20,629 nt of DNA. Source: a virus. How positions within the stretch are numbered: the first letter of the stretch is position 1; every line of letters begins with the position of its first letter. Both the position numbers and the translations under genes were made by a program. The stretch is from the IMG/VR virus record IMGVR_UViG_3300049217_000180, positions 1 through 20,629 of that record. One strand, written 5' to 3'. Below, piece by piece: positions 5,845 to 20,629 of this stretch. A model generated the notes under the pieces. It was given only the letters and a program-made list of their open reading frames with translations. It did no database searches and was not told where the DNA came from.

Positions 5845-6353
5845 AACGGTTTGCGAGCGTGGTGGCGTTTCAGGCGTTTCTCCGCGGCGATCTGCCTGGA
5901 CGCATTGCGCGCGGCAAGGCGGCGGGGATTGCCGCCGGCGCGGAACTTGTGCGCGCGGAAATGACCGGCGAGATTGGAACATACCAGAAAGGTGACGCGC
6001 CGTTTCCCGATTGGGAACCTCTGCGCCCCGGAACGCTGCATGGATTTGGGCCGCTGCCTGGCAAGATTGCGAATGGCCACGCGCCGCCCGATAATCCTTT
6101 GCTGGCCGGTGGTGCGATGCGAGAGAGTATCGGCGTGAAGGTAGATGGTGATTATGCCTCCATTGGCACGGATGACCCTGTGGCAGTGTACCAGGAAATG
6201 GGTACAGAGAAACGTGGCGTGCCGTTTGTGACGGGCGAGACTTCGGAGCCGGGCATCGAGGCGCGCTCCTTTATCGGGCGCGCTGGATTCAGGACATCGC
6301 CGGACGTGGCGATGGCGATAAGCAGGGCGATCATTGCGGAGATAGTGAAATGA
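5841..6353 (+). CDS. HK97 gp10-like / virion morphogenesis (tail completion) protein
   Basis: The 170-residue product begins at GTG in a GTGA overlap. The N-terminal helix (IARGKAAGIAAGAELVRAEM) is followed by PLLAGGAMRESIGVKV, then ASIGTDDPVAVYQEMGTEKRGVP and ARSFIGRAGF. That sequence of a pre-hairpin DxGxMR-like motif, an 'IGTDDPVAVYQEMGT' strand-turn and a closing 'RSFI' is typical of HK97-gp10-like and Mu virion-morphogenesis proteins. These act at the head-tail or tail-terminator interface. Members normally sit upstream of the sheath/tube genes; here it lies between the chaperones and the tape measure. It is translationally coupled on both sides. Confidence 0.65.
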   Translation: MKRFASVVAFQAFLRGDLPGRIARGKAAGIAAGAELVRAEMTGEIGTYQKGDAPFPDWEPLRPGTLHGFGPLPGKIANGHAPPDNPLLAGGAMRESIGVKVDGDYASIGTDDPVAVYQEMGTEKRGVPFVTGETSEPGIEARSFIGRAGFRTSPDVAMAISRAIIAEIVK

Positions 6354-8806
6354 CTGGCATGATCGACGCCTGGGCGATTGGCGTTACCCTTGAGGTTGAC
6401 GACCAACTGACCGGGCAGATGGATGGCATTGCCAGCCAGTTTGACGTGGTGCAGGTGGCGACCAACAAGATCAACGCGGCATTACGGATGATGCCGGGGC
6501 TGATAAACGATAGTGTTTCGGAATCCGCCGGCCTGGCGGCGAATTTTCAGGCGGCGGCTGCGAGCGCGCAGGCTATTCAGCGCGCGGTGGCGGGCGGGGG
6601 TGGGGGAGCGGCGGGCGGTGGCCGGAGTCAGGCTGCGAGCGTGGCGGCGGTGGACGACACGCGCTACTCCTATGCGCCACCCCCGCCGTCAGCGCCGCCA
6701 GCGCCACCCCAGCCGCCAGCGCCGCCGGCCGCGATGTTGGCTTTGCCGTCAGCGCCGGCCCCGCCGTCAGCGCCGCCAGCGCCACCCCAGCCGCCAGCGC
6801 CGCCGGCCGCGATGTTGGCTTTGCCGGCACCCAGCGGGCGCGTGTTCTACGTTGACGCGTATGGGGATGTGATGATTCCCACCAAGTTCAAGGCTCCTGG
6901 CTTTGATCTTGTGGCGCCACCGGGTAGCCGGCCGAGTGGGCCGGAGTCCTGGCCGTATTCAGGCGATACGGGATATGCGCCACCCCCGCCGGCAGCACCC
7001 CCACCCCCGCCGCCAGGAACGGCGCTGACGGCGTATTACAAAGGCGGCACGTGGACCTATGGTGATAATGGGGATGGTGGTGACGGCGGTGGTTTCGTGC
7101 CGCCTGGCGTTGTTCCTGGTGGAACTGGCGGCGGGGGTGAGCCAAGTCATGCTGATTTGCTGGGAGCGTATTTCTACGGCCGGTTGATCGGCGGGATGGC
7201 GCTGAAAACCGTGACCGGGCCATTTGATGCCGCAGCGAGCGTGGCGCAGAAATTGCAGATTATGGAGTCGGCCGGCATGACGCCGGACCAAGCGCAGGCG
7301 GCTTATGCGCAGGCTTCCGCGCTGCGCAGCCAAGCGCAATACGCCACGTTGACGCTGGACGAATTGCTGTCCATGAATACCAGCGCGTTTGTTGTTTCGC
7401 GTAGCGCGGATGTAGCCAATGGGTTGATGCCGACGCTGGCAAATGCCACGACGATTCTAAAAGGCCGCGGCGAAATGGATGCGGCGGCCAGTCTGTTGCA
7501 GTTGATTCGCTCGGGTGACTTGGTTGGTGCGCTGAACTCGCTCAACCCTGACGGCAGCGTGAATGACCAGCCGATGGTGAATTTCATCACCACCGCCGTA
7601 AAGGCAATGAGCGTGATGCCGCCGGGTGAAACGGTGGACGCTACACAAGTTTTACGGCTGTATCAGAACCTTGGTCCTGCGGCACGCGCGCTTAGCCCGG
7701 AAGGGCAAACGGCGGTGCTGGCGCTGGCTATGTCCATGGGGCAATTGAAAGCCGGCACTGGCATCAGTCAGGACTTCAAAGAGCTTGTGGGCGGCAAGAT
7801 GTCCATGGGTGTGGAGGATGTTATGGCCCAGGCGGGGTTGATCAACACCAAAGGTGCGGTGCGGCATGGGCAGTATGTGACGCTGGCTTCCGGTGCACTA
7901 AAAGACCAGGAACTATTCGATAGTGACCCGGTGGCATGGTTTGCCAAGGATTTTGCACCGAAATTCGGTGGTCTTGATAACAAAGACCAGACCACACTTC
8001 TGCACGGCATGTATGCCGCTTTCAACACGGCGCAGGGTTCGCGCGCCGCTGCGGATTCGGCCTATAACTTCAACATGATAATGCGGATTGTGCAGGCGGC
8101 GGAAAATCAACCGGCACTTTCCGCACTTGCTGGTGGGTTTAACACGACTCCGATAGGCAGCCGCACGGCCGCCGGCTCTGCCACCAACGCCATTCTGGTT
8201 ACGGTGGGAGATTCTATTATGAATCCCTTGCAGTCTTTTTTGACCGGATACACCAAGGCGATTAATTCGGTGAACAGGGCGGCGCAGAAACATCCACTTG
8301 AAACGGACGTAACAATTGCTGGCGGGGTTGGTGCTGCTTTTTATGGTCTGTTAAAATTATGGGGACAGACGAAATTTCCATTTTCCGACAGCGCACGAGG
8401 CGCGGCTACCTGGACTGAATCCACTGCATTGGCGGGGTGGAAAAAGCTAAACGATAGCATTAAATTTGTGGAGCGTTTGGCCGGCGGTTCTAAAGATGCT
8501 GATTTTATTGGCACTGAAACGGCCAGTAAAGCCCTGGGGCCGGCATCATTAGCGGTGGCGATTGCTGCGGCTCTGCATGAAATGCAATCAAAAGATTTCA
8601 AACGTGGGTTGGATGCTTTGGCTGGCGGTGACGCCGCGGTTGTGCCGGTTTCTGACGCCCCGCTGGTACAAGCCATTGAACGGCAAACTGAGAAATTGGT
8701 GCGGGCAATCACGGGATCGGCTGCACCATCTACGATGCCGACAGGGCCGGCACAGCCGCCGGCATCGGCACAGATGCCTAATCCGGGGAGGGCGTTGCGG
8801 CCATGA
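6350..8806 (+). CDS. Tail tape measure protein with duplicated proline-rich insert
   Basis: At 818 residues it is the longest gene, placed right after the chaperones as expected. Residues 1-100 are helical and Ala-rich. Residues about 103-265 are a Pro/Gly-rich, low-complexity segment. It contains two copies of a PPSAPPAPPQPPAPPAAMLALP unit and two YAPPPP tracts (Tyr108 and Tyr209), plus a poly-Gly patch. Residues about 270-818 are Ala/Gln/Leu-rich and helical, with hydrophobic stretches near 645-665 (VTIAGGVGAAFYGLLKLWG) and 725-740, as seen in tape measures that insert into the host membrane. It sets tail length by spanning the tube lumen. If only the helical core (about 550-650 residues) counts, a tail of roughly 80-100 nm follows at 0.15 nm per residue (inference). 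Confidence 0.8.
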   Translation: MTGMIDAWAIGVTLEVDDQLTGQMDGIASQFDVVQVATNKINAALRMMPGLINDSVSESAGLAANFQAAAASAQAIQRAVAGGGGGAAGGGRSQAASVAAVDDTRYSYAPPPPSAPPAPPQPPAPPAAMLALPSAPAPPSAPPAPPQPPAPPAAMLALPAPSGRVFYVDAYGDVMIPTKFKAPGFDLVAPPGSRPSGPESWPYSGDTGYAPPPPAAPPPPPPGTALTAYYKGGTWTYGDNGDGGDGGGFVPPGVVPGGTGGGGEPSHADLLGAYFYGRLIGGMALKTVTGPFDAAASVAQKLQIMESAGMTPDQAQAAYAQASALRSQAQYATLTLDELLSMNTSAFVVSRSADVANGLMPTLANATTILKGRGEMDAAASLLQLIRSGDLVGALNSLNPDGSVNDQPMVNFITTAVKAMSVMPPGETVDATQVLRLYQNLGPAARALSPEGQTAVLALAMSMGQLKAGTGISQDFKELVGGKMSMGVEDVMAQAGLINTKGAVRHGQYVTLASGALKDQELFDSDPVAWFAKDFAPKFGGLDNKDQTTLLHGMYAAFNTAQGSRAAADSAYNFNMIMRIVQAAENQPALSALAGGFNTTPIGSRTAAGSATNAILVTVGDSIMNPLQSFLTGYTKAINSVNRAAQKHPLETDVTIAGGVGAAFYGLLKLWGQTKFPFSDSARGAATWTESTALAGWKKLNDSIKFVERLAGGSKDADFIGTETASKALGPASLAVAIAAALHEMQSKDFKRGLDALAGGDAAVVPVSDAPLVQAIERQTEKLVRAITGSAAPSTMPTGPAQPPASAQMPNPGRALRP
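6681..6826 (+). repeat. 68-bp perfect direct repeat inside the tape measure gene
   Basis: Positions 6681-6748 and 6759-6826 read identically (68 bp, period 78 bp, i.e. 26 codons, in frame). The unit encodes the proline-rich PPSAPPAPPQPPAPPAAMLALP segment. Complete identity, including third codon positions, indicates a recent in-frame duplication. Confidence 0.9.
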
Positions 8807-15611: not shown

Positions 15612-15773
15612 ATGGATACTGATTCAATCAGCGGCGCGTATTCCGTTGTGAAAAATGATGCTGACAAGAAAATCAGCCAGATCGCCGTGTTTTTCAAGGA
15701 GAACTGGAAGCAGGCGGTCATCGGATCGGCGGCCGGCGCGGCGCTGTGGGCGCTGCTTTATTTCGTTAAGTAA
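15612..15773 (+). CDS. Small single-membrane-segment protein, holin-like candidate
   Basis: The 53-residue product has GAGG upstream of ATG 15612. Residues 1-33 are hydrophilic and charged (DADKKISQIAVFFKENWKQ). Residues 34-52 (AVIGSAAGAALWALLYFVK) form one C-terminal membrane helix with small residues. It opens the lysis cassette and overlaps the next small membrane gene by TAATG. A holin, antiholin or holin partner is inferred from size, topology and position. No sequence family is recognised. Confidence 0.5.
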   Translation: MDTDSISGAYSVVKNDADKKISQIAVFFKENWKQAVIGSAAGAALWALLYFVK

Positions 15774-15991
15774 TGCGCTGGCTTGGGCAGTTGTTTGCTG
15801 GGGCGGATGGCAAGGCGGATGAAATGTCCGCCTTGTGCATCGCCGGCGTGCTATCGTTCATCGCGTTAGGCGTTTATGCGGTGGTTTGGAACCACCAAGC
15901 GTTTGACCCGATGGGGTATGGCACCGGCCTCGGGGCCGCAATAGGCGCGGCGGCAGCCGGCATGGGTGTGAAGGCGAAATTTGGAGGGTAA
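15773..15991 (+). CDS. Small two-membrane-segment protein, holin candidate
   Basis: The 72-residue product starts in a TAATG overlap. After a polar N-terminus (GADGKADEMSA) it has two hydrophobic segments: ALCIAGVLSFIALGVYAVVW (about residues 20-39) and GTGLGAAIGAAAAGMGV (about 50-66). It ends with a short basic tail (KAKFGG). Two segments and small size fit a class II holin, and it sits directly before the spanins. In some alphaproteobacterial phages similar proteins are annotated only as hypothetical membrane proteins. Confidence 0.5.
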   Translation: MRWLGQLFAGADGKADEMSALCIAGVLSFIALGVYAVVWNHQAFDPMGYGTGLGAAIGAAAAGMGVKAKFGG

Positions 15992-15992
15992 G

Positions 15993-16376
15993 ATGCTGGC
16001 ATTTTTATTGCCTATTCTGAGTAAGGTTGGGCCGTATTTGATTGCGGCCATGCTATTTTTCTCTGCCGGTTCTTACGCCGGATATCGGTGGGAGTTGGGG
16101 GCGGCGGATGCGGCCAAGCTCGCGTTGGTGACTCAGCAGAAGAATGATGCCGCGGCGCTGGCACAAGCGAACGCCCAGGCTGCGGCGGCTATGGCGATGG
16201 CCCTTGATGCTGACAATGCGGCAGAAGCGGCGATTGCGGCGAGCGCCAAGGCGGGTGCCGCACATGACACGGCACTCACCACCGCGATTGATGCGCAGGC
16301 CACACAGCCCGGCCAGGACGGCCCTGTGGCGCCCGTGCTCGCGAAGGCGCTGGAATCTTTGGGAGGCAGCCAATGA
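15993..16376 (+). CDS. Inner-membrane spanin, Rz-like
   Basis: The 127-residue product begins at ATG 15993 behind GGAGGG, 1 bp after the preceding stop. One N-terminal membrane segment (LLPILSKVGPYLIAAMLFFSAGSYAGY, residues 5-31) leads into a long Ala/Gln/Asp-rich helical stretch (about 40-105), predicting a periplasmic coiled coil, and a Pro-containing end. This is the i-spanin layout; the length fits Rz proteins. It is followed by a lipoprotein gene with ATGA overlap, the expected o-spanin partner. Together they fuse inner and outer membranes at lysis. Confidence 0.65.
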   Translation: MLAFLLPILSKVGPYLIAAMLFFSAGSYAGYRWELGAADAAKLALVTQQKNDAAALAQANAQAAAAMAMALDADNAAEAAIAASAKAGAAHDTALTTAIDAQATQPGQDGPVAPVLAKALESLGGSQ

Positions 16377-16630
16377 GGCGCAGTTTGTACGTGTTGTTTG
16401 GGCTGGTTGCTCTGGCTGGGTGCGCAGGTGCGCCGCCGCCGGTAGTGGTGACAAAGATTCAAGTAGAGCGCGTGACCGTGCCGGCTGCGCTTCTGACCGT
16501 ACCAGATGAACCGGCGGTGCCAGTTGGTGCGACAAAGCAAAGCCAAGTGGCGGATTATATCGTGCGTTTGAAAGGGAATGACGATGTTTGTCATGCGACT
16601 TTGGAAGCGATTTCGGCCACGCAAAAATGA
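16373..16630 (+). CDS. Outer-membrane spanin lipoprotein, Rz1-like
   Basis: The 85-residue product has a classic lipoprotein signal: MRRS, hydrophobic LYVLFGLVA, and lipobox LAGC with Cys17 as the lipidated residue. After cleavage the mature protein opens with AGAPPPVVV and stays Pro/Val-rich, as o-spanins do. It ends with a short charged region (VADYIVRLKGNDDVCHATLEAI). It overlaps Rz-like by ATGA but is not nested inside it, unlike lambda. The 3' end overlaps the next gene by 47 bp. Confidence 0.65.
   Translation: MRRSLYVLFGLVALAGCAGAPPPVVVTKIQVERVTVPAALLTVPDEPAVPVGATKQSQVADYIVRLKGNDDVCHATLEAISATQK
16571..16576 (+). promoter_or_regulatory. Ribosome-binding site that decides the start of the zinc-finger gene
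   Basis: AAAGGG lies inside the o-spanin gene. The ATG at 16578 is only 1 base away, while the ATG at 16584 is 7 bases away and therefore the better start. Confidence 0.5.
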
Positions 16631-16826
16631 TGCGTGCAGAGCGTGCGACGGAACAGGTTTGATGCCGTTGCGCAAGGGTATTTTGATGGGGTGCAGCCAA
16701 ATGGGTTTTGCCATCGGCGTGCGGATTTGGGCGGTGTGCGATGCCTGCGATGGCCGCGGTACGTCGCATAATCCGACTGCCGTGCGACCCGCGCCGTTTC
16801 CCACAAGAAAAAAGGAGATTTCATGA
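16584..16826 (+). CDS. Small DnaJ-type zinc-finger protein (two CxxCxGxG motifs)
   Basis: The 80-residue product carries CRACDGTG (Cys18, Cys21) and CDACDGRG (Cys52, Cys55). This pair of CxxCxGxG motifs matches those that coordinate zinc in the DnaJ central domain, with an extra Cys37 between. The J-domain is absent. The N-terminus is basic (RLWKRFRPRK). The start lies within the o-spanin gene (47-bp overlap) and the end overlaps the lysozyme ATG, so translation of the three is coupled. Free-standing CxxCxGxG proteins occur in phages without known function. A link to lysis timing would be guesswork. Confidence 0.6.
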   Translation: MFVMRLWKRFRPRKNDACRACDGTGLMPLRKGILMGCSQMGFAIGVRIWAVCDACDGRGTSHNPTAVRPAPFPTRKKEIS

Positions 16827-17296
16827 GTGATTTTGCGGCGGCGGAAGAGATCGCGCTGGGTTTGGCTAAGCCATTTGAGGGGTTCCGTGCGAATCCATAT
16901 CCTGACGCGGCTACCGGCGCGGAACCGTGGACTATTGGTTACGGTTCTACGCGCGACATAAATGATATGACGGTGACGGCAACGACCGCGCCAGTCACAG
17001 AATCGCAGGCTTGCGAAATGGCGGAGCGCGATATGTATCGCGCTTTCACCGCCATTGCAAGCGCAATCAAGGTGCCTTTGACGGACCATGAGACCGGCGC
17101 GATTATGGATTTTGTATACAACGTGGGCGCCGGTAATTTCCGCAATTCCACGCTGCTGCGGCTAATAAATCTTGGGCAGTACGAGTCGGCGGCTCAGGAA
17201 TTTCAGAAGTGGGGTATGGCGGCCGGCAAGGTGATGGCGGGGCTATTGCGCCGCCGCGCGGCCGAGGCGCAGACTTTCAACACAAAGGATTCCTGA
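16823..17296 (+). CDS. Endolysin, GH24 lysozyme (muramidase)
   Basis: The 157-residue protein is a T4-lysozyme-type muramidase. Candidate catalytic residues are Glu19 (KPFEGFR), Asp28 (YPDAATG) and Thr37 in WTIGYGST. Glu-to-Asp spacing is the same as in T4 lysozyme, while Asp-to-Thr is three residues longer, as in several GH24 phage enzymes. The LTDHETGAIMDFVYNVGAGNF helix (about 92-112) and GLLRRRAAEAQTF (about 139-151) are also typical. It hydrolyses the MurNAc-GlcNAc bond. There is no SAR or signal segment, so release from the cytoplasm needs a holin. It is coupled by ATGA to the zinc-finger gene. Confidence 0.85.
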   Translation: MSDFAAAEEIALGLAKPFEGFRANPYPDAATGAEPWTIGYGSTRDINDMTVTATTAPVTESQACEMAERDMYRAFTAIASAIKVPLTDHETGAIMDFVYNVGAGNFRNSTLLRLINLGQYESAAQEFQKWGMAAGKVMAGLLRRRAAEAQTFNTKDS

Positions 17297-18985
17297 ATGA
17301 TCGGCAGACCGGAGACGACTGACGCTGAGCTTTTGCGCACGCTTGCCGTATTGAGGGGATTCGGCGGCAAGCAGACGGTGGCGGCGAAGGCCCTGGGGAT
17401 TACCGATGGCGCGATGCACTATAGGATAAAACAGGCCGAGAAGCGCGGTATTGTTCTTGGTGATGAGGTTGTTGAAGATGCCAAAATGTTGGCTAAAATT
17501 GATCCTGTAGAGCGGCACGGGCGAATCCACGCGATGCAGACGGTGGCGCGCGATGTGCCGGGGGCGGGGGTGCGGCGGTATCTTTTCACTTGCGCGCAGA
17601 ACGATACGAAACTGCATGAGGCGTTCTGGCAAAATCTTCTGGCGTTTGCCGCCAATCTGAATGCAGAGATTCATGTGAGCCGGTTTGCCTATGTGAAGAC
17701 CGGGCTGGGCGAGGGAAGCGACAAGGCCGGATGGACGGCGCGCAATGTTGGCGAGAAGGGAAAGCGGGACCGAACTTGGGATAGCGCGCTAGAACCGCAC
17801 CTATCAGATGGACGCATACAGGTTGCGCCTGGGCTAGTATGGTGCGGGGAAATGAATATCATTCCGACTGCCGGGAAACCGCTGTCTGGATTGGACTCCT
17901 ACACCGGCCAGGCCAGCGGAATTTTTCCGCATGTGAAGCTGGCCATGGACAGCATTGCCAGCCCGGCGGGTGAGCCTGCAAAGTTCAATTACACAACCGG
18001 CGCGGTGACTCAGCGCAATTATATCCAGCGCAAGGCTGGCCTTATGGCGGAGTTTCACCATTGCTATGGTGCGCTGCTAGTCGAGGTGGATGCGGCCGGA
18101 GATTGGTTCGCACGGCAGATAAACGCCAACAGCGAGGGCGAATTTTACGACCTCGATTTGTATGTGTCGGCCGGCGTTGTGACCCGTGGTCACAGGGTTG
18201 AAGCGATCACCTGGGGCGATATTCACGATGCCGAGCGGGTGGCGTGGGTGGATGAACTGGCGTTTGGGTTCGGTGGGATGCTGGATTCGCTGGGGCCGCG
18301 GTATCAGTTTTTGCATGATGTTCTTCACTTTCGCGGGCGCTCGCACCATGAGATAAAGAATCCTCATGTGATGTTTGCGCGCCATGTGCAAGGGCAGACG
18401 GATGTGGCGGCCGAGGTGGCGGCGACGTGCCGGTTCCTCGACCGGGCGCGGCGTCCGTGGTGCGAGACGGTGGTGGTTGACAGCAATCATCACCATCACC
18501 TGGCCCGGTGGCTACGCGAGCAGGATGGGCGCGAGGACGTGGTGAACGTGCGGTTCTGGCTGGCGATGAATCTGCGCATTTATGGGATTCTGGCGCGCGG
18601 TGACAAGCCTATCTATCTGGCCGAAGCGGTGCGCGAGGTGGCCGGGAATGCGGCGATCAAGGATAAGTTTCTGGCGCCAGACGAAAGCGTGGTGCTGTGC
18701 CCTGACGCCGGCGGCGGGATTGAGGCTGGGATGCACGGTGACCACGGGCCGAACGGCGCGCGTGGCAGTGCGCAGAGCCTATCAAAGCTCGGGCGTAAGG
18801 CAAACATCGGCCACGCACACTCTGCGCGCATTGTGGACGGGGTTTACCAGGGCGGGACGCATGGCGAACTGAACCCGGATTGGGTGAGCGGACCTGGCAG
18901 TTGGAGCCATAGCGAGATTGTGACCTACGCGAATGGCAAGCGGTGCATTGTGACGATGCGGAACGGGAAATGGTGCGCCCGATGA
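17297..18985 (+). CDS. HTH-fused putative metallophosphoesterase, phage T5 A1-like
   Basis: The 562-residue protein starts right after the lysozyme stop. Residues 1-55 form a helix-turn-helix (GRPETTDAELLRTLAVL, then AAKALGITDGAMHYRIKQAE). The rest resembles T5 A1-family and related phage proteins: MNIIPTAGKPLSGLDSYTG, GIFPHVKLAMDSI, FNYTTGAVTQRNYIQRKAG. It has metal-site motifs in calcineurin-like order: GDIHD (Asp308, His310), DSNHHHH (Asp395, Asn397, His398), HGDHG (480-484) and GHAHS (His506, His508). That pattern suggests a two-metal phosphoesterase or nuclease of the Mre11/SbcD fold. T5 A1 is needed for early host DNA breakdown and second-step DNA transfer. Family membership is from memory of sequence pattern; activity is inferred. 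It lies in the late operon, unlike pre-early T5 A1, and overlaps a metallopeptidase gene by ATGA. Confidence 0.6.
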   Translation: MIGRPETTDAELLRTLAVLRGFGGKQTVAAKALGITDGAMHYRIKQAEKRGIVLGDEVVEDAKMLAKIDPVERHGRIHAMQTVARDVPGAGVRRYLFTCAQNDTKLHEAFWQNLLAFAANLNAEIHVSRFAYVKTGLGEGSDKAGWTARNVGEKGKRDRTWDSALEPHLSDGRIQVAPGLVWCGEMNIIPTAGKPLSGLDSYTGQASGIFPHVKLAMDSIASPAGEPAKFNYTTGAVTQRNYIQRKAGLMAEFHHCYGALLVEVDAAGDWFARQINANSEGEFYDLDLYVSAGVVTRGHRVEAITWGDIHDAERVAWVDELAFGFGGMLDSLGPRYQFLHDVLHFRGRSHHEIKNPHVMFARHVQGQTDVAAEVAATCRFLDRARRPWCETVVVDSNHHHHLARWLREQDGREDVVNVRFWLAMNLRIYGILARGDKPIYLAEAVREVAGNAAIKDKFLAPDESVVLCPDAGGGIEAGMHGDHGPNGARGSAQSLSKLGRKANIGHAHSARIVDGVYQGGTHGELNPDWVSGPGSWSHSEIVTYANGKRCIVTMRNGKWCAR

Positions 18986-19314
18986 AAGTGAAAGTAAGCT
19001 ACGGAGAAGTTTCAGTAAAGGGTTGCTCTCCCGCCGAAGCCAATAGCAACGAAATGCAGGCGTGGTGGAGGCCGCTGTATCATGAAATAGCTATAAGGAC
19101 AGACCTGCCGCCGGCGCAACAAGCGGCGTGCTTGATGCACGAACTTTTGCACGCTATTTTTTCCTTGCATGGACTGAACAATGAGAATCTAACCGAAGAA
19201 GAGGTTTGCGGACTTTTAGATGGCCCGCTGACGGCGCTGCTCACTGATAATCCGTGTCTGGTGGGGGTGTTGTACCAAGCTGTGATTCATGGGGCGCCGG
19301 TGGTGAAGGGATAG
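18982..19314 (+). CDS. Small HExxH zinc metallopeptidase-like protein
   Basis: The 110-residue product starts in an ATGA overlap with the previous gene. Its core is CLMHELLHAIFSLHG, a zincin HExxH (His53, Glu54, His57). A plausible third ligand is a Glu in NLTEEEVCGLLDG, 17-19 residues later. Before the motif, YHEIAIRTDLPPAQQAACL matches the strand-helix lead-in of small ImmA/IrrE- or SprT-like phage peptidases, and LTALLTDNPCLVGVLYQ is a typical C-terminal helix. The target is unknown. Related small phage proteins are usually annotated only as hypothetical or ImmA/IrrE-like. It is the last plus-strand gene; 38 bp separate it from the convergent minus-strand gene. Confidence 0.65.
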   Translation: MKVKVSYGEVSVKGCSPAEANSNEMQAWWRPLYHEIAIRTDLPPAQQAACLMHELLHAIFSLHGLNNENLTEEEVCGLLDGPLTALLTDNPCLVGVLYQAVIHGAPVVKG

Positions 19315-19352: not shown

Positions 19353-20099
19353 TCAGGCGACAAGCGGGCGATCAAAGTAGGTGCGGCCATCCAACTCATG
19401 GCCACCCTTATCTGATCCCCGTCCACCAACCTGCTTGAAATTGAACACGCGGCCAAGATCAGCCGACTGCCGACGCAATGACCGCGCCCAATCAAGATTC
19501 ATCGGCCTAGCGTGCGCGCCACTCTCGCCACCAACAATGATCCAGTCCGGCGCCAATGTGTCGAGGATGACCGGGCCGAGCAGCGGCTCGAAGCTGCCGA
19601 AGGTAAACAAAGCCCCCAGCTCCACGCCCGCCGTCCTCAACTTGATGCGGTCACGGTCATAATCGCGCTGGTCGCCAAACGTCGCGCCAAGGGCTGAATT
19701 GGGCGGCAACCCACCTGCCTCCCGCGCCATATACACGGCATTCCCAATGCGTTTCGACAAGTAGAGCATAACGAGGTTGGGGCAATGGCGGGCCATGTCA
19801 AAAGCATCACGCCTTACCGCCGGATCAACCTCGTTATCCCAAATGTCGCCAAGGCTCAATGAAAACACAAACGCCCTTTTTCCGGCCGCACCGGCTGCCC
19901 GATCCCATTTACGGAGCTGCGCCCAGGTGCTCGCGGATGTGCGAACCCGCGCCTCGCCCGCGCCCCATCTTACCCTGCCGTAGCGCGTGTCCATAAGGTT
20001 TTCGGCATAGCAATGATCGCACGGCGGACCTACTTTGGTGCAGCCGATCCACGGATTCCATGTGTGATCCGTCCACTCAATTTTACTATTTTCGGCCAA
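19353..20099 (-). CDS. Phage Gp37/Gp68 family protein (DUF5131), radical-SAM-like
   Basis: The 248-residue protein matches the phage Gp37/Gp68 family along its length. It opens with KIEWTDHTWNPWIGC and a Cys cluster Cys20-x6-Cys27-x2-Cys30 (CTKVGPPCDHCYAE). SLSLGDIWDNEVDP, then NLVMLYLSKRI, FGSFEPLLGPVILD, DWIIVGGESGAHARPM and FNFKQVGG follow in the family order. The Cys cluster suggests an iron-sulfur/radical-SAM-type fold; the reaction is not established. The start is TTG at 20099, behind CCGAAAGG, since no ATG fits the conserved N-terminus. It is the third gene of a minus-strand set and converges on the late operon. Confidence 0.82.
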   Translation of the reverse strand: MAENSKIEWTDHTWNPWIGCTKVGPPCDHCYAENLMDTRYGRVRWGAGEARVRTSASTWAQLRKWDRAAGAAGKRAFVFSLSLGDIWDNEVDPAVRRDAFDMARHCPNLVMLYLSKRIGNAVYMAREAGGLPPNSALGATFGDQRDYDRDRIKLRTAGVELGALFTFGSFEPLLGPVILDTLAPDWIIVGGESGAHARPMNLDWARSLRRQSADLGRVFNFKQVGGRGSDKGGHELDGRTYFDRPLVA

Positions 20100-20305: not shown

Positions 20306-20326
20306 GCCTTTCGGAGGTTAAGTGGA
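20306..20326 (-). repeat. Junction element copy 2: stop codon plus ribosome-binding site
   Basis: On the minus strand it reads TCCACTTAACCTCCGAAAGG followed by C. It ends the heptapeptide-repeat gene and supplies the ribosome-binding site of the Cys-rich gene. It is the partner of 20106-20126 with three mismatches. Confidence 0.7.
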
Positions 20327-20629
20327 CTCAACTAAGTCGTCATCCTGAGTCCAGTCTGCCACGTCCGGCCTTTCGGCGCGGGCATCAATCGGAATAGCGG
20401 TCACGTCGCCGCGCAGCCCGGTCACGTCGCCGCGCAGCCCGGTCACGTCGCCGCTCAGCGCGGTCACGTCGCCGCGCAGCCCGGTCACGTTGCCGCTCAT
20501 CCAGGTCACGTCGCCGCGCAGCCCGGTCACGTCGCCGCTCAGCGCGGTCACGTCGCCGCGCAGCCCGGTCACGTTGCCGCGCAGCCCGGTCACGTTGCCG
20601 CTCATCGCGGTCACGTTGCCGCTCATCCA
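20318..20629 (-). CDS. Heptapeptide-repeat protein, N-terminal part beyond window
   Basis: The frame is open to the window edge; an ATG at 20626 exists, but the codon before it (Trp) continues the repeat, so the gene is probably longer. The visible 104 codons consist of eleven heptads of the form (L/M)(R/S)G(D/N)VT(G/A/W), such as LRGDVTG and MSGNVTG. A non-repeat tail follows, IPIDARAERPDVADWTQDDDLVEST. Regular Leu/Met, Gly and Val spacing predicts a beta-solenoid-like stack, comparable to pentapeptide-repeat proteins but with a period of seven. Similar LxGDVxG repeat proteins occur in phages and bacteria without assigned function. It is the first visible gene of the minus-strand unit. Confidence 0.65.
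   Translation of the reverse strand, partial: WMSGNVTAMSGNVTGLRGNVTGLRGDVTALSGDVTGLRGDVTWMSGNVTGLRGDVTALSGDVTGLRGDVTGLRGDVTAIPIDARAERPDVADWTQDDDLVEST
20400..20629 (-). repeat. Eleven tandem 21-bp units coding the heptapeptide repeats
   Basis: Units begin at 20400 and every 21 bp after (the last lacks 1 base at the window edge). Each starts gtcacgt and varies at a few fixed sites. The three-unit blocks 20421-20483 and 20505-20567 are identical over 63 bp, showing higher-order duplication. There are no spacers, so this is not a CRISPR array. Confidence 0.95.

Follow-up and report, generated by a model that had tools for sequence, protein, structure and literature searches.

The stretch of DNA analysed here (hereafter the window) is a 20,629-base virus record from IMG/VR, IMGVR_UViG_3300049217_000180, a fragment from a contractile-tail phage. 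It covers the block for tail, baseplate, and lysis, with genes for a sheath, baseplate J, a tail fibre, small hydrophobic open reading frames (ORFs), an Rz1-like lipoprotein, and a phage lysozyme. The gene of interest begins on the base right after the lysozyme stop codon, with AAAGGA just upstream, and encodes a relative of the phage T5 protein A1. Its product is predicted to consist of a helix-turn-helix (HTH) followed by two metallophosphoesterase (MPE) folds, with a two-metal site only in the second. The gene and its domains lie as follows.

17297..18985, plus strand: A1-family protein of 562 residues, ATG start; PHROG 1745, "DNA transfer protein".
17321..17443, plus strand: N-terminal HTH, residues 9-49; AlphaFold2 helices at 9-21, 26-33, and 37-49, with predicted local distance difference test scores (pLDDT) of ~93-96.
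17561..18154, plus strand: degenerate MPE-like domain by predicted fold, residues ~89-286, without canonical metal ligands.
18188..18979, plus strand: catalytic-type MPE core by predicted fold and invariance, residues 298-561, with D308, H310, D341, N397, H398, H480, H506, and H508.

An earlier, sequence-only reading of the window had pointed out a resemblance to T5 A1, and this is borne out. The PHROG 1745 profile matches residues 26-560 of the 562 (E 4.6e-165), T5 A1 itself (T5.004, AAS77051.1) matches the same profile (E 8.5e-244), and direct alignment of the two proteins gives 35% identity over 484 residues (E 6e-84). A tblastn search found relatives in 1,124 phage records; in 1,038 the match spans at least 80% of the query. 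These relatives are often annotated as hypothetical or homeodomain-like. Together, the profile match, the direct alignment, and the number of records indicate that the family is already well known; judged by homology, the window gene is a further member of a widespread phage family that was first known from T5. It differs from T5 A1 in that the latter has no Pfam HTH match, and in that the T5 gene is pre-early and lies in the terminal repeat, with A2 nearby, whereas the window gene lies at the end of a late block. A pre-early terminal-repeat location, by which the T5 A1-A2 system is recognized, was not found in the window. Because the gene follows the lysis cassette, we file it as an A1-family member and not as part of a T5 pre-early two-step DNA transfer system (A1-A2); no A2 turned up in the 20.6-kb fragment, in which no search aimed at A2 was made.

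The C-terminal half bears on activity. The four motifs previously picked out from the sequence all stand in the protein, GDIHD at residues 307-311, DSNHHHH at 395-401, HGDHG at 480-484, and GHAHS at 505-509, and together with D341 they supply the calcineurin-like MPE set (DxH, D, NH, H, (G)HxH). Seven of the residues concerned (D308, H310, D341, N397, H398, H480, and H508) are invariant in 61/61 aligned relatives, and H506 is conserved in 59/61; T5 A1 retains all of the metal-site residues as D304, H306, D340, N396, H397, H476, H501, and H503. As sequence patterns, then, the MPE motifs are far from chance. The AlphaFold2 model of the full protein has a mean pLDDT of 90.5. Residues 298-558 of the model superimpose on the PolD DP1 exonuclease with Z 12.7 (root-mean-square deviation (rmsd) 3.7, 206 residues aligned), and the core scores Z 11.5 against YfcE, 11.5 against LpxH, and 10.8 against Mn-bound Mre11. 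Among predicted viral structures, Foldseek matched a whole A1 homologue, that of pf16 (BFVD, TM-scores 0.82/0.86), as well as several phage MPE proteins. The suggestion of a calcineurin-type, Mre11-like core could have failed at this structural comparison and instead came through it: the C-terminal half shares its predicted fold and its two-metal residues with both Mre11/SbcD and PolD DP1.

The region preceding this core was unexpected. When residues 78-299 were folded alone, the model had a pLDDT of 88.6, and its residues 13-209 (~89-286 of the window protein) aligned with Vps29 with Z 9.2 and rmsd 3.3 over 149 residues. All of the best 50 structure matches listed for this domain are MPE-fold proteins, and the Vps29 chain 5xck_A aligns end to end with each of the two A1 halves. 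In the 61-member alignment the domain has invariant residues of its own (Q101, L180, G184, P190, T234, G235, T238, Y242, and H255). Where Mre11 works with two chains, a single A1 chain appears, according to the models, to combine an HTH with two MPE folds, one of them degenerate; and unlike for Mre11/SbcD, no Rad50 partner was seen for A1. We found no earlier report of a second MPE-like domain in A1 in the literature searched.

The N-terminal HTH that had been proposed to be joined to the A1-like domain is likewise upheld, by the three confident AlphaFold2 helices and by Pfam matches in relatives. For the window protein alone, the Pfam HTH matches are sub-threshold (0.017-0.067), but at E ≤ 0.01 HTH_8 matches 21/61 relatives and HTH_30 matches 20/61. 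A similar N-terminal pattern is present in most members of the non-redundant set, and the region is absent from a few (L063, L071, L080, and L085). It follows that the HTH fusion is common in the A1 family and is not special to the window.

What these domains might do is best considered against the record of T5 A1. In T5, mutants in A1 leave the host DNA undegraded (PMC3556154, PMC8541194, PMC13250531), and a conference report lists A1 as a putative DNase (PMC7232257). A nuclease activity of A1 has not previously been reported; what has been described is binding to RNA polymerase and association with the membrane (PMC3556154, PMC8541194). Because the two-metal site is invariant and the core resembles Mre11 and PolD, the likeliest activity would be that of a Mn2+-dependent DNA nuclease of the Mre11/PolD type. 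The HTH would bind DNA, and the first, degenerate MPE domain could serve as a built-in partner or as a DNA platform.

Several results weigh against this interpretation. First, no Pfam MPE domain was detected at E ≤ 0.01 in any of the 61 members, so that the case for the MPE core is structural and motif-based. Second, Foldseek against the PDB returned no match below E 0.001, also not for the degenerate domain folded alone, and hhalign between the two A1 halves found no sequence similarity. An internal duplication visible in the sequence was accordingly rejected, and, given these two null searches, it is the predicted fold from which the tandem-MPE arrangement is drawn. Third, LpxH, YfcE, and Vps29 score near Mre11, and MPE folds also serve phosphatases and non-enzymes; likeness to the Mre11 fold (Z 10.8) does not by itself separate a nuclease from a phosphatase. 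Finally, because T5 A1 binds host RNA polymerase and is found in the membrane fraction (PMC3556154), a role other than that of a nuclease is possible.

The setting of the gene bears on when it might act. The genes around it are as follows.

15612-15773 and 15773-15991, plus strand: two small hydrophobic ORFs, assigned by position to the lysis cassette, which spans 15612..16630.
15993-16376, plus strand: ORF at the Rz place, no match, assigned to the cassette by position.
16373-16630, plus strand: Rz1-like gene (LysC/Rz1, E 2.3e-7; Rz-like PHROG 456, E 9.5e-10).
16823..17296, plus strand: phage lysozyme (PF00959, E 6.3e-38), directly upstream of the A1 gene.
18982..19314, plus strand: small zincin of 110 residues from the ATG at 18982 (HELLH, then a conserved EE), IrrE/M78-like, PHROG 1233.
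19353-20099, minus strand: DUF5131 protein (E 1e-54), convergent with the late block.

Because the opposite-strand DUF5131 gene comes after the zincin stop at 19314, the rightward block ends with A1 and the zincin. The placement of A1 in a late operon right after the lysozyme, as first read from the letters, is confirmed by the Rz1-like and lysozyme genes. A promoter of its own for A1 was considered and rejected, the consensus scan being near chance (4 found versus 2.4 expected in shuffles). Megablast of the right part of the window against phages gave 0 matches, as did searches with Padloc and NCBIfam. Elsewhere in the window, a small ORF between Rz1 and the lysozyme (16662-16826, plus strand) carries two CxxCxGxG DnaJ-type zinc-ribbon motifs and has no clear family match. 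The 818-residue protein at the tape-measure position (6350-8806, plus strand) contains a repeated proline/alanine-rich stretch (APPSAPPAPPQPPAPPAAMLALP) at ~residues 110-170. Near the right end, positions 20398-20622, inside an ORF at 20318-20626 on the minus strand, hold 10.7 copies of a 21-bp repeat (90% match) that encodes 7-residue, GDVTGLR-like units; this ORF is longer in the near-identical contig L002 (133 versus 102 residues), the window copy being cut by the window end.

Outside T5, A1 genes commonly occupy a late position, and the window is not special in this respect. Among 80 non-redundant A1 loci, whose module labels are approximate and come from homology to a limited reference set, the upstream same-strand genes are tail, head, or lysis genes in 43, replication genes in 19, and neither in 17, with T5 as one more. 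In annotated genomes, A1 lies in the head module of the Nanhaivirus phages R5C and Pan1 and after tail or hydrolase genes in the Rhodobacter phages RcRhea and RcRudolph, and it is near replication genes in pf16, ParKuw1, Alfirin, and Mwe-JY26. RcRhea, R5C, and Pan1 share with the window protein the combination of HTH and A1 core; RcRudolph differs in having an A1 protein without the N-terminal HTH stretch. In this group as a whole (RcRhea, RcCronus, RcRudolph, R5C, and Pan1), A1 is in or after tail or head modules, as in the window, but the modules are of siphovirus type, identities are 44-49%, the neighbours are others, and no zincin stands beside A1.

Two Acetobacterales prophages (Acidisoma L091 and G347/L120) have baseplate, tail, and fibre genes related to those of the window (31-39% identity), and in both of them A1 comes right behind the fibre gene. 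The two prophage A1 proteins match each other (49%) better than they match the window A1. That of L091 falls outside the window A1 clade, and that of L120, in which no zincin was found, is 43% identical to the window protein. L120 was compared by BLAST only; in a quick tree, the window A1 and six others form a group with full support, and five of the seven are in replication modules. Because the window A1 groups mostly with A1s from replication modules, and the prophage A1s resemble each other more, A1 seems, from these comparisons, to have entered the late slot of such related tail modules on more than one occasion. Two further A1-family genes, in L097 (JAICWS010000002.1, 7887-9527) and L100 (SCTB01000169.1, 7207-8793), lie in plainly bacterial chromosomal surroundings, the L097 gene having, by eye, hemW, RdgB, ribonuclease PH, and an HrcA-like gene as neighbours. 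The two proteins are sisters in the tree and retain the invariant metal-site residues; a domesticated A1 in an uncultured alphaproteobacterial lineage is possible.

We consider it somewhat probable, on balance, that the whole arrangement is to be read in the following way: an HTH, a degenerate MPE domain, and an active MPE nuclease, made late, with the zincin next door by chance. A1 is the last gene but one in the late block and is translated straight after the lysozyme, so that in this phage it is probably made late; it would then nick host DNA, break it down, or process DNA ends ahead of lysis. We infer the nuclease activity and the role of the first domain from fold and conservation, and the late time of action from gene order only.

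Three other functions deserve consideration. A1 could instead modify transcription, binding host RNA polymerase and changing promoter use, with the loss of host DNA as an indirect result. This was proposed for the A1 homologue of phiCbK on the strength of the T5 polymerase-binding and membrane-fraction data (PMC3556154) and repeated for KASIA (PMC8541194), and an HTH would fit it. However, the two-metal residues are invariant over 61 divergent members and the HTH is much less conserved, which points to catalysis as the function that has been kept, and we regard a transcriptional role as unlikely, though the best placed of these three. Rather less probable is an SbcD-like enzyme of phage DNA end processing or of replication and repair, not directed against host DNA. 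The closest A1 relatives of the window (L003, L004, L011, and L015) do adjoin DNA polymerase and a RuvC-like gene, and PolD DP1 and Mre11 are structural neighbours; but in many phages, including that of the window, A1 sits in a late block away from replication genes, and the T5 phenotype is degradation of host DNA. A protein packaged in or ejected from the virion, made late and acting early in the next infection, would square a late gene position with early action as in T5 and would suit the A1 genes inside the head or tail modules of the Nanhaivirus and Rhodobacter phages and in the late block here. Against this, other phages hold the gene in replication modules, and we give it a slightly smaller chance again.

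The sequence-only reading had suggested that A1 and the zincin form a functional pair. The ATGA overlap on which this was built does exist, the zincin ATG at 18982 lying within the 3' end of A1 (an alternative GTG start at 18943 would make the protein 13 residues longer). The zincin itself matches PHROG 1233 (E 2.4e-12) and, below the cut-off, Pfam M78 (E 0.0045, 17.2 bits versus a cut-off of 22; the relative in L006 reaches 22.8 bits), and its family profile matches the IrrE structure 3dte (E 3.2e-5). H66, E67, H70, E85, and E86 are invariant in six relatives, giving the HExxH and downstream acidic ligand of IrrE/M78, so that by sequence its nearest described relatives are the IrrE/M78 peptidases. 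The survey of neighbours, however, went against the pairing. A same-strand downstream gene with HExxH occurs in 1/68 A1 loci, that of the window only. The PHROG 1233 zincin is present in 3/41 other A1-bearing contigs (3/14 and 0/27, the latter search having a positive control in which three known carrier records matched) and is never adjacent to A1: in G001 and G002, which have the nearest A1 relatives, its place is between the portal and major capsid protein genes, ~35 kb from A1, and in Mwe-JY26 it precedes the terminase genes, ~37 kb away. A tblastn search with a zincin relative found nothing, and a search of 397 Acetobacterales genomes, run without a positive control, was empty. The overlap is rejected as evidence of function because 31/66 A1 genes overlap the next gene or sit within 5 bp of it. 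Thus, although the arrangement recurs in a second contig, L002, the sole other pair and one with identical proteins, a functional pair (a sensor-effector, protease-activated nuclease, or anti-defence unit) is highly improbable, and the two genes most likely stand side by side at the end of the block by chance, the zincin being a small phage gene that occurs elsewhere with no A1.

A second candidate partner was also rejected. Short putative transmembrane proteins are encoded directly upstream of A1 in 42/80 loci versus downstream in 5/76 (loci with an upstream gene include L007, L016, L017, L022, L024-L027, L030, L032, and L035-L037). PHROG 6420, a small membrane protein with a C-terminal transmembrane segment, precedes A1 in 22 loci and accounts for 23/137 neighbour proteins, and T5.005, beside A1 in T5, is a membrane protein too. 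The window has no such gene directly upstream of A1, and in PaMx28 and Mallos the same gene is the last of the lysis cassette, with no A1 beside it; for this last reason, the gene may only mark the slot.

That T5 needs A1 to break down host DNA has been known for decades, yet A1 had been assigned no nuclease activity and Pfam has no domain for its core. What is new here is a picture of A1 at the level of predicted fold, with an HTH, a degenerate MPE, and an active MPE. This fold and the invariant residues give exact T5 positions for tests: D304, H306, D340, N396, H397, H476, and H501/H503. More tentatively, and with somewhat less than even confidence, the models could be extended to the family, T5 A1 included: A1 proteins would be single-chain, Mre11-like pseudo-dimers, each joining an active MPE domain to a degenerate MPE fold that has an invariant pocket of its own, in most cases with a DNA-binding HTH as well, and would represent a portable host-DNA nuclease that many phages place in pre-early, replication, or late blocks. 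Our survey finds the A1 gene in early, replication, or late blocks of different phages, and, given this varied placement, A1 need not have a role bound up with two-step DNA entry.
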